DNA from: Bacteroidota bacterium
Lineage (GTDB): Bacteria > Bacteroidota > Bacteroidia > Flavobacteriales_D > Crocinitomicaceae
DNA length: 64,000 nucleotides
Reading direction: 5' to 3'
Assembly (NCBI GenBank): GCA_006226425.1
Contig: SBGX01000006.1
Coordinates: forward strand, 1-64,000
The notes under the pieces were generated by a model that was given only the letters and a program-made list of their open reading frames with translations, searched no databases and was not told the DNA's origin. This document shows, in pieces, positions 58,172 to 64,000 of the stretch. The translations under genes and the position numbers were made by a program. Each line of letters opens with the position of its first letter. Within the stretch, counting starts at the first letter, position 1.

Positions 58172-58777
58172 TCAATTCCCCTCCGACTCCTCTTTTTCCA
58201 GGCCTCTCTTTTTCAATTCCCGATCTATTTTTTCCAATTCTTCATAGAAGGAAAGTCCGTAAGCGCGGATGATCGGCTCTTTCAAGAAACGGTATACCGG
58301 AACCTCCAATTCCTCACCACAGGCACATGCCGGACGACAGATGTCCCACTTGTCATACTGCAGAGCTTTGAACTTGGGGTACCTTTTCTCCCGAATCGGG
58401 TAAAGGTGACAAGAAATTGGTTTCAACAGTTTCGACTTCCCCTCCCGGTGTGCTTGTTCTATCGCACATTTTGTAATGCCTTTCTCATCAAAAAAAACAA
58501 ATGCGCATTCCTTGTTATTGACGAGTGTTGTTACTGGTTCATTGTCCCAGTCCATATAAAAAACTCCCTGCTCTCTGATTGCTTCAATCCCTTCCGGCCT
58601 CATATAGCTTTCTATCTGTTCCAAATCTTCTTCAATCAAATCAATTTCATGCGGTTCAAGGGGGGCTCCCGAATCTCCTTCAATACAACAAATTCCTTTG
58701 CAGGCTCCCAAATCACATACGAACTTCTTCTCCAGAATTTCGAGTGAAACAACTTTATCTTCTACTTCAATTAACAT
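58172..58777 (-). CDS. DUF3109-family Cys-rich protein
   Basis: A 201-residue protein that fits the DUF3109 pattern: FVCDLGACKGICCIEGDSGAPLEPHE near the start, YMDWDNEPVTTLVNNKECAFVFFDEKGITKCAIE in the middle, KPISCHLYPIR, and WDICRPACACGEE. The Cys clusters look like a metal-binding (iron-sulfur or zinc) site. Function unknown. It is 12 bases after the HAD phosphatase gene and probably the last gene of the cyclase operon. Confidence 0.87.
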   Translation of the reverse strand: MLIEVEDKVVSLEILEKKFVCDLGACKGICCIEGDSGAPLEPHEIDLIEEDLEQIESYMRPEGIEAIREQGVFYMDWDNEPVTTLVNNKECAFVFFDEKGITKCAIEQAHREGKSKLLKPISCHLYPIREKRYPKFKALQYDKWDICRPACACGEELEVPVYRFLKEPIIRAYGLSFYEELEKIDRELKKRGLEKEESEGN

Positions 58778-58789
58778 CTTATTCAGTCT

Positions 58790-59446
58790 CTATTTCCATG
58801 TCGCGATCAACTCATTCAGGTCTTCTCTTCGCACATCTGCTAAAATCAATCTGGGGTCTGGTTCATGTGTTTTTTCTGGGATACAAACCACTGTCATCCT
58901 GGCCGCTTTTCCTGCAATAACTCCGTTCAAACTATCTTCGATGACCAGGCAATTTATCGGTTTCACACCGATTTCCTGAGCCGTGTGAAGGTAAACATCC
59001 GGATGTGGTTTTCCAAATCGTTCTTTCTCGGCAGAATGTGTCAGATCAAAATAATCTCCTATTTCCAGCACTTCCAATACGGCATCAATCAACACTTGAT
59101 AGGAGGATGTCGCTAGTGCAAGCTTCATTCCCTGCTCTTTAAAAAAAGTCAAACTCTCCCGAACTCCAGGTAAACAGGACCCATGTGCCTTAATCAGTTG
59201 AACCATCTCCTCTAGAATGAGATTCAATACTTCTTTCGGGCCGACTCCCTCCCAGGGCTTTCGATCGTACCAGTAATTAATGACTTCATCCAACCTCAGA
59301 CCAACCGTTTGCTCAAAATCCTTTTTCTTCAAGTCACAGCCCTGTTCTTTGAATACTTTTTCCATCGCTATCTTCCACAAGGGTTCCGAGTCGATCAAAA
59401 CCCCATCCATGTCATAAATCACTGCTTTGATTTCTTCCTGCTTCAT
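58790..59446 (-). CDS. HAD-superfamily phosphatase
   Basis: A 218-residue enzyme of the HAD subfamily IA, close to beta-phosphoglucomutase and hexitol phosphatases. It has YDMDGVLIDSEPLW (motif I, nucleophile Asp about 11), LALATSSY (motif II), GKPHPDVYL with the conserved Lys (motif III) and VIEDSLNGV (motif IV). Probably acts on a sugar phosphate; the exact substrate is not evident. Its start overlaps the upstream stop by four bases (ATGA). Confidence 0.9.
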   Translation of the reverse strand: MKQEEIKAVIYDMDGVLIDSEPLWKIAMEKVFKEQGCDLKKKDFEQTVGLRLDEVINYWYDRKPWEGVGPKEVLNLILEEMVQLIKAHGSCLPGVRESLTFFKEQGMKLALATSSYQVLIDAVLEVLEIGDYFDLTHSAEKERFGKPHPDVYLHTAQEIGVKPINCLVIEDSLNGVIAGKAARMTVVCIPEKTHEPDPRLILADVRREDLNELIATWK

Positions 59447-60321
59447 TTGATTCTCATTCGATATAATTTTCCTCCTCCCAATATCGGTGCTTTCTCATCA
59501 CTCAGAAAAAACCCGTTTTCCACGTGCACAATTGCTTCTTTTTGTGTCCAGTTTTTGAACTTGATATACTTTTCTTCGGCAAAGCTCCTTCCTCCATCTC
59601 GTTTCAAGGCAAAAATACCTTTGTAAGTAAGTAAAAAAATCTTGTCGCCGTCCTTACATGCTCCGGTAACAGCATGCCTATTTGTTCTTTTTCCTCCTAA
59701 ATCAAGTCTTTGAAACACCTCGGCCGATTGGTTGTCTGACTCCAAAGACAATTTGTAAACATAACTCAATCCATCATAAGGCTTACTGCGACACTTGGTG
59801 AAAATCCACAATGAATCATTCAGATAAATCATTGCTTCCGCGTCAAAATGCAGGTCCTTATTTTCCGGCGGATACGCTTGTTGGTCGGCATACCGGAAAC
59901 GGATCTTTTCGGCGGTTACTTCCTTTGAAGCGATCACCGAATCCGCAGACACCCGATAAATACAAAGATCTTTTCGCTGATTCCCATTGTTTCCAATATC
60001 TCCAATGAATAGTGTTCCTGTTTTTTCGTCCAGGGCCAAATCTTCCCAATCCCGATTGGTGGCATTCCGAAGCTGAACGGTCTTTGTGATTTCTCCCCGA
60101 AGATTAAGCACATATAGAATTGCCTGGTCTCCGCTGTCATTATGCGCTATCAGATGGTTCTTCCAATAGACAAGCCCTGAAATCTCATGCAGGCTGTCTG
60201 AGAGGAAAAAACTTTCTTCGATTTTCAGCTGTTGCGCCGTCACTTTCACCCAGAACAAACTACAAAGGGCCAGGATCAGGGGACCCTTTCTCCTCTTAAT
60301 CCTTGTAATCATTCTTTTCAA
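59443..60321 (-). CDS. Exported beta-propeller-like protein
   Basis: A 292-residue protein with an N-terminal signal or membrane anchor (LILALCSLFWVKVTAQ). The rest consists of repeating short strands such as EISGLVYWKNHLIAHNDSGDQ, NRDWEDLALDEKTGTLFIGDIGNN and FDAEAMIYLNDSLWIFTK, suggesting a beta-propeller with DxxG-type turns. It may be a calcium-dependent hydrolase or binding protein of the SMP-30 or phytase-like kind, but key residues are not certain. Its start lies inside the end of the cyclase gene (26-bp overlap), so it is co-transcribed. Confidence 0.65.
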   Translation of the reverse strand: MKRMITRIKRRKGPLILALCSLFWVKVTAQQLKIEESFFLSDSLHEISGLVYWKNHLIAHNDSGDQAILYVLNLRGEITKTVQLRNATNRDWEDLALDEKTGTLFIGDIGNNGNQRKDLCIYRVSADSVIASKEVTAEKIRFRYADQQAYPPENKDLHFDAEAMIYLNDSLWIFTKCRSKPYDGLSYVYKLSLESDNQSAEVFQRLDLGGKRTNRHAVTGACKDGDKIFLLTYKGIFALKRDGGRSFAEEKYIKFKNWTQKEAIVHVENGFFLSDEKAPILGGGKLYRMRIK

Positions 60322-63300
60322 GACGATCCTTTATGTCCTGCAAGTTTTGTTCTTTTTTGGCCTGTCTAGTTTGAATCGCTGTTTCCGTAAAATACTTGTG
60401 ATTGGTCAGGAACATCACCTGGATTTCATCCCATTTTCGATCACTGTCTATTTTTCCGTGCTCTCTCAATTCCCGTCGCAGTTTATCGGCAATCTCATGA
60501 AAGTCATCTCTACCCAGGTAATCCAAATCGGCATCACAAATGATCTCTTCCAGTTTGCTTTTGGGCTTATGTGGTATTTCCGTCACGTAAATAAGCTCCC
60601 GGATTCGTTCAATATGCTCGTCCGTATAACCGTACTTTGGCAAAATCTCTCCCGCCATCCGTGCACCAACCGGTTCATTTTTATCGTAGATCTCCACGAA
60701 TCCGGCATCATGGTAGGTGGCCGCCGACTTGAGTAAGAATAAGCCTTCATCGGTCACCCCCTCTAAGAGCGCCAGTCGCTCAACCGCCCGACAGACATCC
60801 TTGGTATGGGCAATACTATGATAATGCAACTTCGGTGATAATTTCTTTTCCAAAAGCTTCATGATGTGACGTTCTGCCTTATAGTAGTTAATGCTACTGT
60901 AATGATGCAGGTTTACAATCTGATGGAAGCGATCATTCGGGTACAGGCCTTTTCCATCGACCGAAAGTTCCGGTTTAATTCCATCGACCGTGTACATGTC
61001 GATCAGTCCTTTACTTTTAGATTTTACTTTTCCTTTAAAGGTGCATGAGAAATAGGGTTCAACATACACGAAAGTTTGTCCAGAAACCGTCACTTTTCCA
61101 GGCTCACCTAACATCTCCATTCGTTGGGCCTGATTCACCGTTGCCCCCCAGATATCATAAGCTAGTTTTTCAGAACCGATGACCCCTGCCGTCACCTCTC
61201 CCGTATTAATCCCTAGACGCAATTCCCAAACTATTCTTCCCGATTGGCGTGCTTCCTGCCGCATGATGTCCATGCTTTCCTGAATTTGCAGGGCTGCCAA
61301 ACAGGCATCGATCGGATTCGTGTTATTTCGCACCGGAACTCCTCCGGCACACATGTATGCATCCCCAATCGTTTTGATTTTCTCCAGGTTATTCCGAACG
61401 ATGATCTCGTCAAATTTTCTGAAATAGATGTCCAACTCACTGACCAGGTCAGAAGGACTCATTTTTTCCGCTATTTTGGTAAACCCAACGAAATCCGTAA
61501 AGAGCACGGATACCGTTTTATAGGCCCGAGCCGAAGCCTTTCCTTTGGTTTTTAATTCCTGATAAGTGGACTCTGGAATAATGTTCTTGAGTAATTTTTC
61601 TGTTTTTTCTTTCTCCACTTCCAATAGCCTTTTTTGTTCTTCGAGTCGGTTTTTCTTTTCTTCAATCGTTTCTTTCTGTTTCTCGATCTTAATATTCTGC
61701 TCCCTGATTTCCCGGGTTCGTTCCGCAATTTTCATCTCCAAAAGGACCTGTTCCCTACGCTCTTCTTCGATTCGTTTCCGGGCGACAACGATGATGAACA
61801 GGGCCACAATCACAGCAACTACCACCCAAAATCCAACTGTTCGCCAAAAAGGAGCGGCCAGACTGATCTCTATTTGCGCCGGCACCGGATTCCATTCTCC
61901 AGCCCCTGTCCGGGCATAAACTTTCAGCTTGTAATCTCCTGGCTGGAGTGAGTTAAAGTGGATCTGATTCGTATTTCCAATCTCAATTTCTCCTTCGTCC
62001 GACCCCTCCAGAATGTACTTGTAGTTTACCAGGTCTGGATTGCTCAGATCCTGAACCATGAAGCGAATGGTAAAGCTCCTCTGTCGGTAATTGAGCTCTA
62101 TTCGCTTGGTTTCGGAAATGCTCCGGCTCAACAACTTGTCTGTGTCTCCCGGACGAATCCAATTTTCGTCCAGTTTAAATTTCGTGAACACAATCCGTGT
62201 GTACTTGCTCTTATTTTGAAGGCTTCCCGGATCGAAATAATTGTATCCATTGATGTTCCCAAAATACAGGAAGCCATTGGCTGACCTTAGGTAGGCTCCC
62301 TGGTTGTATTCGTTTGCCGCGAGACGGTCCAAAGCAGCATGATTAACTATTTTCCGCTCCTGAAGATCAAATCGGGCTATCCCTTTATTTGTACTTAACC
62401 AAAGTGCTTTGTTCTTGTCTGCCAAAATCCCGTACACCACATTATTCGGAAGTCCGTTTTTCTTGTTATAAATGTGTGCTTTCCGTGATTCGAGGTCTAG
62501 CTGAATCATCCCTGAACCCATGGTTCCCATCCAAAAGGTTCGCTCGTCGGACTGATAAATGGTCGTGATATAATTTCTGGACAACAATCTGATCGTCTCG
62601 TTATATTTATATGGGACGATGGCTACACTTCCATCCCGCTCCTCCAGTACATTCAGTCCACCAACACTGGTTGTAAACCACACCCGGCCCCGTTTGTCCT
62701 TAAAGGCAAAACGACAAGCCCCGGCGCTAATGGTTCCGGAAGCATTCACTGGATTGTGTTCGAAAGGCTGTACACTTCCTTTTTCATGGTCGTACAACAG
62801 CACTCCTCCTTTGGTTGCCAGAAAGTATTTCTTTTCTTTCCAGTGTACGATGTAATACGTCCGTTCAAAATTGGCCGGATTGGCTAAACCCTCGTAATTC
62901 AGCTTTTCATAGCGATACCTGTTTGGAGATTCAATACGGAGGATCTGTAGTCCCTCGGTAGTTCCAACCAGCAGCTCTTTTTCACTGATCACATGAAGAC
63001 TCAAAATGGCCGTTTCAACCGAGCCTTCGTGCTGATCTCCATCGAATCCATTTCGAAAGAACTGATCAAACCTGGCATGTTTATGGTCATATCTCGAAAC
63101 GGCATTGTCCGTCCCGATGAACAAATAGTTTGCTTCCTTGTCTTCGGCAAAGCACCAAACTCCAGGCGAGGGAATGCCTTGAGACAAACTACCACTTGGC
63201 CCTACACTGAAAAATCCATTGTTATATGGGCTGAAGCTACTAATTCCTCGTTCGGTAGCCACCCAAAAAGTGCCACTCTTATCCTTGAAAATGGCGTTGA

Positions 63301-64000
63301 TCGAACTATTTGCCAGCGCATTCTTTTGGAAGATATCCTGTGTGTGTTGCAGAATTTTTATGTCCCCTTTGATTGAGATCGTTAAAAGGCCATGGGTTTT
63401 ACTTGTTACAAACAGTTTTGACGTTTGCTCTTCCCACCAAATATCCGTCACATCAATCAGGCCGAAACGCTCTTCCAACTCTGAGAGATAGGGTTTTGCT
63501 TCTCTGGTTTCCGGGTGATAAATATACAGTCCCTGATTTGTCCCCAACAGATATTTATCCCGCACTTTCTTCATCAGGTTGACCCGCACAAAGCTCTTCT
63601 GCTTTCCGGAGATCTTTACCGGCTTGATTTTCTTACTTGATACATCGACAAGCATCGCCCCCTTATCTTCGCTGGAGACAAATAGGCTCTTCTGATCAAT
63701 AAATGCTAAAAACTCGATCTTACTGGATACCAGAGGAGCAATAAAAAAGTTGAATTTCTTCTTGTCTTTCGAAAAAACACAAATCCCATTGGATGCCGTT
63801 CCCAACCACAATTTTCCGTTCCCATCGTCCGCAATGGATGTAACATGCAGCGTAAACCGATCTTTCAGGATGTGTGACTCAAAGGTTTCCTTTTGAGGAA
63901 TGTAATTGAGCAATCCATTGGAGGTTCCAAACCAAATACTCCCTGACTCGTCAATGGTGGACGTCGTAAAATAGTTGCTGCTGATACTTGGCGTGTTGTC
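60296..64000 (-). CDS. Propeller sensor fused to adenylate cyclase and HD domain, 5'-truncated
   Basis: The frame is open to the window edge, so the start is not seen; the first visible residues belong to another propeller blade (IDESGSIWFGTSNGLL). Visible order, with nucleotide positions: two-component-type propeller blades (64000 to about 62150), a Y_Y_Y domain (about 62100-61880), one membrane helix (61850-61790), a coiled coil (61780-61590), a class III cyclase domain (about 61530-60990) and an HD domain (about 60880-60480). In the cyclase, SVLFTDFVGFT and KIKTIGDAYM carry the two metal Asp and the ATP-selecting Lys, and AYDIWGATVNQAQRM the second selector Asp plus transition-state Asn and Arg. 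It should therefore be an active adenylate cyclase. The HD part has HSIAHTKD, TYHDAGF and CDADLDYLG. It leads an operon with three further genes. Confidence 0.9.
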   Translation of the reverse strand, partial: DNTPSISSNYFTTSTIDESGSIWFGTSNGLLNYIPQKETFESHILKDRFTLHVTSIADDGNGKLWLGTASNGICVFSKDKKKFNFFIAPLVSSKIEFLAFIDQKSLFVSSEDKGAMLVDVSSKKIKPVKISGKQKSFVRVNLMKKVRDKYLLGTNQGLYIYHPETREAKPYLSELEERFGLIDVTDIWWEEQTSKLFVTSKTHGLLTISIKGDIKILQHTQDIFQKNALANSSINAIFKDKSGTFWVATERGISSFSPYNNGFFSVGPSGSLSQGIPSPGVWCFAEDKEANYLFIGTDNAVSRYDHKHARFDQFFRNGFDGDQHEGSVETAILSLHVISEKELLVGTTEGLQILRIESPNRYRYEKLNYEGLANPANFERTYYIVHWKEKKYFLATKGGVLLYDHEKGSVQPFEHNPVNASGTISAGACRFAFKDKRGRVWFTTSVGGLNVLEERDGSVAIVPYKYNETIRLLSRNYITTIYQSDERTFWMGTMGSGMIQLDLESRKAHIYNKKNGLPNNVVYGILADKNKALWLSTNKGIARFDLQERKIVNHAALDRLAANEYNQGAYLRSANGFLYFGNINGYNYFDPGSLQNKSKYTRIVFTKFKLDENWIRPGDTDKLLSRSISETKRIELNYRQRSFTIRFMVQDLSNPDLVNYKYILEGSDEGEIEIGNTNQIHFNSLQPGDYKLKVYARTGAGEWNPVPAQIEISLAAPFWRTVGFWVVVAVIVALFIIVVARKRIEEERREQVLLEMKIAERTREIREQNIKIEKQKETIEEKKNRLEEQKRLLEVEKEKTEKLLKNIIPESTYQELKTKGKASARAYKTVSVLFTDFVGFTKIAEKMSPSDLVSELDIYFRKFDEIIVRNNLEKIKTIGDAYMCAGGVPVRNNTNPIDACLAALQIQESMDIMRQEARQSGRIVWELRLGINTGEVTAGVIGSEKLAYDIWGATVNQAQRMEMLGEPGKVTVSGQTFVYVEPYFSCTFKGKVKSKSKGLIDMYTVDGIKPELSVDGKGLYPNDRFHQIVNLHHYSSINYYKAERHIMKLLEKKLSPKLHYHSIAHTKDVCRAVERLALLEGVTDEGLFLLKSAATYHDAGFVEIYDKNEPVGARMAGEILPKYGYTDEHIERIRELIYVTEIPHKPKSKLEEIICDADLDYLGRDDFHEIADKLRRELREHGKIDSDRKWDEIQVMFLTNHKYFTETAIQTRQAKKEQNLQDIKDRLEKNDYKD

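Follow-up and report, generated by a model that had tools for sequence, protein, structure and literature searches.

Can a single bacterial receptor both make and destroy the cyclic nucleotide with which it signals? The question is raised by one gene in the first 64,000 nucleotides (hereafter 'the window') of contig SBGX01000006.1, from a member of the Crocinitomicaceae (Bacteroidota; assembly GCA_006226425.1). The initial annotation of this stretch described the encoded protein, here called P0001, as an extracellular propeller sensor joined to a class III cyclase and an HD domain, and proposed that a cyclic nucleotide or other signal may be made and broken within one polypeptide. Here, we compare P0001 with sequence profiles, solved structures and other genomes. 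In our reading, to which we assign a probability of roughly 0.6, P0001 is a receptor in which one chain makes cyclic adenosine monophosphate (cAMP) and probably also hydrolyses it. The proposal of making and breaking in one chain is supported by the repeated association of its HD family with class III cyclases and with PycTM, a Pycsar effector gated by cyclic nucleotides, and by invariant residues that match those of class I cyclic-nucleotide phosphodiesterases (PDEs).

The receptor and its cyclase

The gene runs off the window, and its missing 5' end was obtained from the host contig: P0001 starts with TTG at contig position 64213, past the window, and comprises 1305 amino acids with a signal peptide. 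Its features, in window coordinates, are as follows.

60296-64000, minus strand: in-window part of the receptor-cyclase-HD gene (P0001), the frame being open through the window edge
61841-64000, minus strand: periplasmic sensor, a double beta-propeller with Reg_prop repeats (residues 21-791, the first part lying past the window)
61865-62044, minus strand: Y_Y_Y domain (residues 724-783; Pfam PF07495, 1.7e-12)
61781-61840, minus strand: single transmembrane helix (residues 792-811; a hydrophobic stretch in the sequence)
61583-61780, minus strand: coiled coil or signalling helix joining the membrane helix to the cyclase (residues 812-877; from the sequence and a weak HNOBA match)
60983-61531, minus strand: class III cyclase catalytic domain (residues 895-1077; PF00211, 1.9e-43)
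60299-60961, minus strand: HD domain, phosphodiesterase-like (residues 1085-1305)
60410-60421, minus strand: Q1265-x-x-F1268, aligned to PDE4D Q369/F372, the purine glutamine and hydrophobic clamp

The architecture described earlier was borne out. Pfam recognizes six Reg_prop repeats (2.2e-27) as well as the Y_Y_Y and Guanylate_cyc domains, one membrane helix and a coiled coil are present, and residues 21-791 align over their full length with PDB entry 4a2l, a BT4663-type sensor (E 2.5e-78). P0001 has the double propeller and the Y_Y_Y domain, an outer part of the sugar-sensor type, in common with such Bacteroides hybrid two-component sensors, but its output is a cyclase-HD module; no Pfam match to a histidine kinase, a receiver or an AraC-type/DNA-binding domain was found in P0001.

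The cyclase domain scores 148.6 bits against PF00211 (Guanylate_cyc; cut-off 21.9) and, in a PDB search, aligns with mycobacterial and mammalian adenylate cyclases. As in class III adenylate cyclases such as mycobacterial Cya and AC9, all six catalytic residues are present, namely the metal-binding aspartates D907 and D951, the transition-state residues N1027 and R1031, and the lysine and aspartate typical of cyclases using adenosine triphosphate (ATP), K947 and D1020. All six are invariant across ~78 homologues, and the claim of an intact ATP-type site stands, the alignment having revealed no degeneracy. One relative (L044) that appeared to lack the catalytic residues was ruled out as such because a wrong reading frame had been chosen. 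These residues argue strongly for predicted cyclase activity. Unlike Cya and AC9, P0001 has an HD domain in cis, C-terminal to the cyclase, and reads VNQAQR (window 61121-61135) instead of the customary N-x-A-[AS]-R, a variant that is invariant in the P0001 family.

The combination of cyclase and HD domain is widespread among related bacteria. A scan of GTDB genomes yielded 80 loci with P0001 relatives, mostly full length, in Crocinitomicaceae and other Flavobacteriales, and the cyclase-HD module occurs in 117 of 120 Crocinitomicaceae genomes (95 of the 96 of high quality), usually twice per genome. Where both motifs are present, the interval between FTD of the cyclase and YHxxxH of the HD domain is 226 residues, with few exceptions. 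The second such protein of the genome studied here, P0002 (567 amino acids; L004:4139-5842), is a receiver-cyclase-HD protein in which a receiver replaces the sensor. A full-length relative with 55% identity was also found on a contig titled Glaciecola amylolytica (L027), which is probably a misnamed Crocinitomicaceae genome.

The HD domain compared with phosphodiesterases

The HD domain of P0001 is characterized by H1132, H1136, H1168-D1169, N1179-E1180, T1211, D1229, E1248, Q1265 and F1268. The ligand pattern H...HD...D of the HD superfamily, which had been read from the sequence before, is present as H1136, H1168-D1169 and D1229; H1132, H1136, H1168, D1169, D1227 and D1229 are invariant across the ~78 homologues, and no degenerate HD site was found. 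D1227 was considered as a metal ligand, but D1229 is preferred because the alignment with PDEs places the PDE site there; both residues are invariant.

The Pfam check suggested earlier recovered the other three families and failed for HD (PF01966) in P0001 itself, which falls below significance; P0002 reaches 24.9 bits as an isolated domain and 23.0 bits as a full protein (cut-off 22), and other members of the HD family also exceed the cut-off. The isolated P0001 domain gave nothing firm against Pfam or NCBIfam, and a single-sequence PDB search returned chance matches alone, so that profiles were required. The longer motif of HD-GYP and PgpH proteins, H...HD...H...HH...D (as defined in PMC8177086), is absent: residue 1179 is asparagine, and a further histidine position of bacterial HD domains is occupied by threonine.

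Several residues of the domain correspond to those of PDEs. In an unconstrained hhalign comparison of a broader HD alignment (A4) with PDE4D, PDE2A, PDE9A and PDE5A (all four sequences confirmed from the PDB), H1132, H1136, H1168-D1169, E1180 and T1211 fall on PDE4D H160, H164, H200-D201, E230 and T271, and D1229, E1248, Q1265 and F1268 on D318, E339, Q369 and F372. In PDEs the glutamine binds the purine and the phenylalanine forms a hydrophobic clamp; residue numbers and roles of this kind are established knowledge or come from a published account (PMC13095499). The match of Q1265 to Q369 recurs in 105 of 120 local hhalign runs with half-size subsets, and A4 scores 34.4 against the PDEs, whereas 40 column-permuted controls reach no more than 19.9. 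The breadth of A4 is required here: an alignment of close homologues alone (A1) stops short of Q1265 when compared with PDEs, and the alignment of the clade with asparagine at that position (A5) covers the N-terminal half alone. T1211, invariant in all 83 HD-family members, is likewise threonine in PDEs, and another residue occupies its place in the bacterial HD structures nearest by sequence.

The AlphaFold model of the domain (predicted local distance difference test score, pLDDT, 92.4) finds its best VIA-align matches in human PDE10A, PDE7A, PDE2A and PDE5A (Z ~17 over ~195 residues, 2.7 Å), a ranking on which the very large number of PDE entries in the PDB bears and in which YpgQ, at Z 16.6, counts as tied. 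In fold and in ten corresponding residues, including the purine glutamine and the clamp phenylalanine, the domain resembles eukaryotic class I PDEs (PF00233), and we have moderate confidence that it may hydrolyse a cyclic nucleoside monophosphate (cNMP).

Several observations weigh against this assignment. The P0001 domain has no match to PDEase_I (PF00233), although one HD-family relative reaches E 0.024; it spans 221 residues rather than ~320, and neither H204 nor N321 of the PDEs has a conserved counterpart in the HD family. By sequence profile its nearest solved relatives are not PDEs but the bacterial HD hydrolases 2pq7, 3b57 (Lin1889) and YedJ. The hhalign probabilities are modest (medians of 28-68% in most runs), and under one global-mode setting the value was 5% and the glutamine match disappeared in 21 of 30 runs. 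At a predicted template modelling score (pTM) of 0.57, the placement of cyclase and HD domain relative to each other is poorly defined in the model. Finally, position 1179 is histidine in 80 of 83 HD-family members and asparagine in P0001, P0002 and L115, as it is in 77 of 78 aligned P0001 orthologues, a replacement that may point to changed metal binding or to an inactive site. Class I PDEs, however, bind their second metal with no ligands other than the HD aspartate and water (PMC8177086), and loss of this histidine therefore need not abolish activity, but might.

A Bacteroidota-wide HD family

A profile built from the P0001 HD domain has matches in 132 of 395 Bacteroidota genomes. The domain lies C-terminal to class III cyclases, in a separate gene beside them, fused or adjacent to YitT, behind TPR repeats, on its own, or N-terminal to PycTM. 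Among 80 HD-locus neighbourhoods outside the seed genes, classified with locally built models, a class III cyclase is fused or lies within ~4 kb in 17, compared with an expectation of ~0.45 derived from 219 cyclases in 99 genomes; the corresponding Poisson probability of 2e-21 overstates the independence of the loci, which are related. All 20 sampled family members of ~400 amino acids end in PycTM, an identity that Pfam supports at 1e-32 to 2.5e-36 in the three tested. At L171 and L172, genes for a class III cyclase-TPR protein with altered base-selectivity residues, for PycTM and for a solitary HD domain stand side by side, possibly a Pycsar-like circuit with its own hydrolase.

A tree of 83 HD domains resolves two clades (split support 100/99). 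The first has glutamine at position 1265 (26 members) and occurs in cyclase, YitT and TPR contexts; the second has mostly asparagine, threonine or serine there (57 members) and occurs in PycTM and solitary contexts. The association of residue 1265 with context (Fisher 5e-9) is no evidence of many independent events, because it reflects essentially a single evolutionary split. The cyclases linked to the glutamine clade all have the ATP-type lysine with aspartate or threonine; three of those linked to the other clade have histidine or glutamine at the lysine position, and the fourth (L166) has lysine and aspartate. This pattern suggests that synthase and hydrolase may match in the base that they recognize.

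The family is apparently an undescribed set of bacterial domains resembling cyclic-nucleotide hydrolases: in the open-access literature we found no description of it or of a propeller-cyclase-HD protein. We tentatively suggest, at somewhat less than even odds, that it represents an unannotated, phylum-wide group of class I-like cNMP PDEs, in which the glutamine clade, paired with ATP-type cyclases, would yield single-chain receptors that make and destroy cAMP, and the other clade, mostly with asparagine, threonine or serine and fused to PycTM, would remove a different cyclic nucleotide as off-switch or tuner of the effector. If the family does hydrolyse cNMPs, it would provide an off-switch for class III cyclases throughout the Bacteroidota, the split at position 1265 would predict the substrate base, and there would be a hint as to how PycTM effectors are restrained.

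Two further arrangements were seen in the family. In eleven loci (L116, L118, L124, L126, L128, L129, L132-L135 and L137) the HD domain is either joined to a YitT/DUF2179 membrane protein or encoded next to one, and a receiver-cyclase gene is often close by. In L136, L138, L144 and L154, where the HD gene is solitary and of the non-glutamine clade, it adjoins a gene that starts with an LIRHAKSSW-type motif of SixA-like phosphohistidine phosphatases.

Competing readings and genomic setting

The relationship to bacterial HD hydrolases invites a different assignment, in which the domain would be, like YpgQ, YedJ or YfbR, a nucleotide phosphatase or pyrophosphohydrolase that acts on the cyclase substrate or by-products and not on a cyclic nucleotide. 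The solved sequences nearest by profile (2pq7, Lin1889, YedJ and YpgQ) speak for it, as does the fact that YpgQ, structurally tied with the PDEs, is a deoxynucleoside triphosphate diphosphatase (PMC8177086). HD phosphatases, however, have been described with a conserved arginine about three residues before the first histidine of the motif, and positions 1129 and 1133 do not have arginine among their most frequent residues; T1211 and Q1265-x-x-F1268 resemble PDEs rather than YpgQ-type proteins, and the PycTM and class III cyclase partners of the family indicate cyclic nucleotides. We regard this assignment as unlikely. We are a shade more doubtful that the domain is catalytically dead in the cyclase-fused subfamily and serves as a cNMP-binding regulatory domain in feedback on the cyclase. 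Asparagine in place of the near-universal histidine at 1179 speaks for this, and the constant spacing behind the cyclase would fit a structural role; yet the remaining residues of the metal site, and those that match PDEs, vary little or not at all across ~78 sequences, and a PDE-like mechanism, with its second metal on aspartate and water, does not need the extra histidine (PMC8177086).

That P0001 belongs to a Pycsar-like anti-phage circuit, in which the cyclase makes the signal, the HD domain limits it and a membrane effector is the output, seems very improbable. Such a role is brought to mind by the PycTM fusions of the same HD family and by the adjoining cyclase, PycTM and HD genes of L171 and L172. 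No PycTM gene was found in the genome, however, and P0001 itself lacks PycTM; the pyrimidine cyclase beside PycTM that marks Pycsar is replaced here by a cyclase with ATP-type residues, and the P0001 HD domain falls in the glutamine clade, not in that of the PycTM fusions. Defence systems have a patchy spread, and the near-universal presence of the module in Crocinitomicaceae looks instead like that of a core regulator.

The reading that we prefer, a receptor making and probably hydrolysing cAMP, would work as follows. The periplasmic double-propeller and Y_Y_Y sensor would drive the cyclase through the single helix and the coiled coil, and the homodimeric class III cyclase would make cAMP from ATP. 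The HD domain, set at a constant spacing C-terminal to the cyclase and acting as a cNMP PDE from a bacterial family similar to the class I PDEs of eukaryotes, would hydrolyse cAMP or a near relative among cyclic nucleotides, and the receptor would thereby set the net cAMP level and sharpen the signal in time and space. Control by a ligand and the direction of coupling are weakly suggested by this arrangement. The signal is likely to be read by CRP-type regulators, for which the genome holds several candidates. It encodes nine cNMP_binding proteins; genes matching PDEase_I or PDEase_II, the Pfam class I and II PDEs, were not found in it. To our knowledge, cyclic-nucleotide breakdown in the Bacteroidota is poorly described.

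Fusions of this kind have a precedent in plants. The combined adenylyl cyclase with phosphodiesterase (CAPE) of Marchantia and other streptophytes unites a class III adenylyl cyclase and a class I PDE in one membrane-anchored chain, and both activities were shown biochemically (PMC5159850, PMC8115329). CAPE has an N-terminal true PDE domain, two membrane helices and a C-terminal cyclase, without a propeller sensor; in P0001 the order is reversed (sensor, membrane helix, cyclase, HD), and the putative PDE is a divergent bacterial domain without a PDEase_I match. Since CAPE is an already known fusion of cyclase and PDE, P0001 would be a bacterial variant rather than a new category, and its family a bacterial counterpart of CAPE if it hydrolyses cNMPs.

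Three genes follow the receptor gene downstream.

59443-60321, minus strand: exported protein, sharing 26 nt with the cyclase gene and without a Pfam family above cut-off
58790-59446, minus strand: HAD-family phosphatase
58172-58777, minus strand: DUF3109 protein

The initial annotation had joined them to the receptor as an operon. The genes are tightly spaced, but a functional unit is unsupported because the neighbours are not conserved: among 66 orthologous loci, the exported protein and the HAD phosphatase each recur in 3 and the DUF3109 protein in 2. Directly upstream on the same strand, just past the window, lies a ferritin gene (L003:8271-8792; contig 64270-64791), which is kept within 340 bp upstream in 50 of 72 orthologous loci and hints at a link to iron or stress, or at co-transcription.
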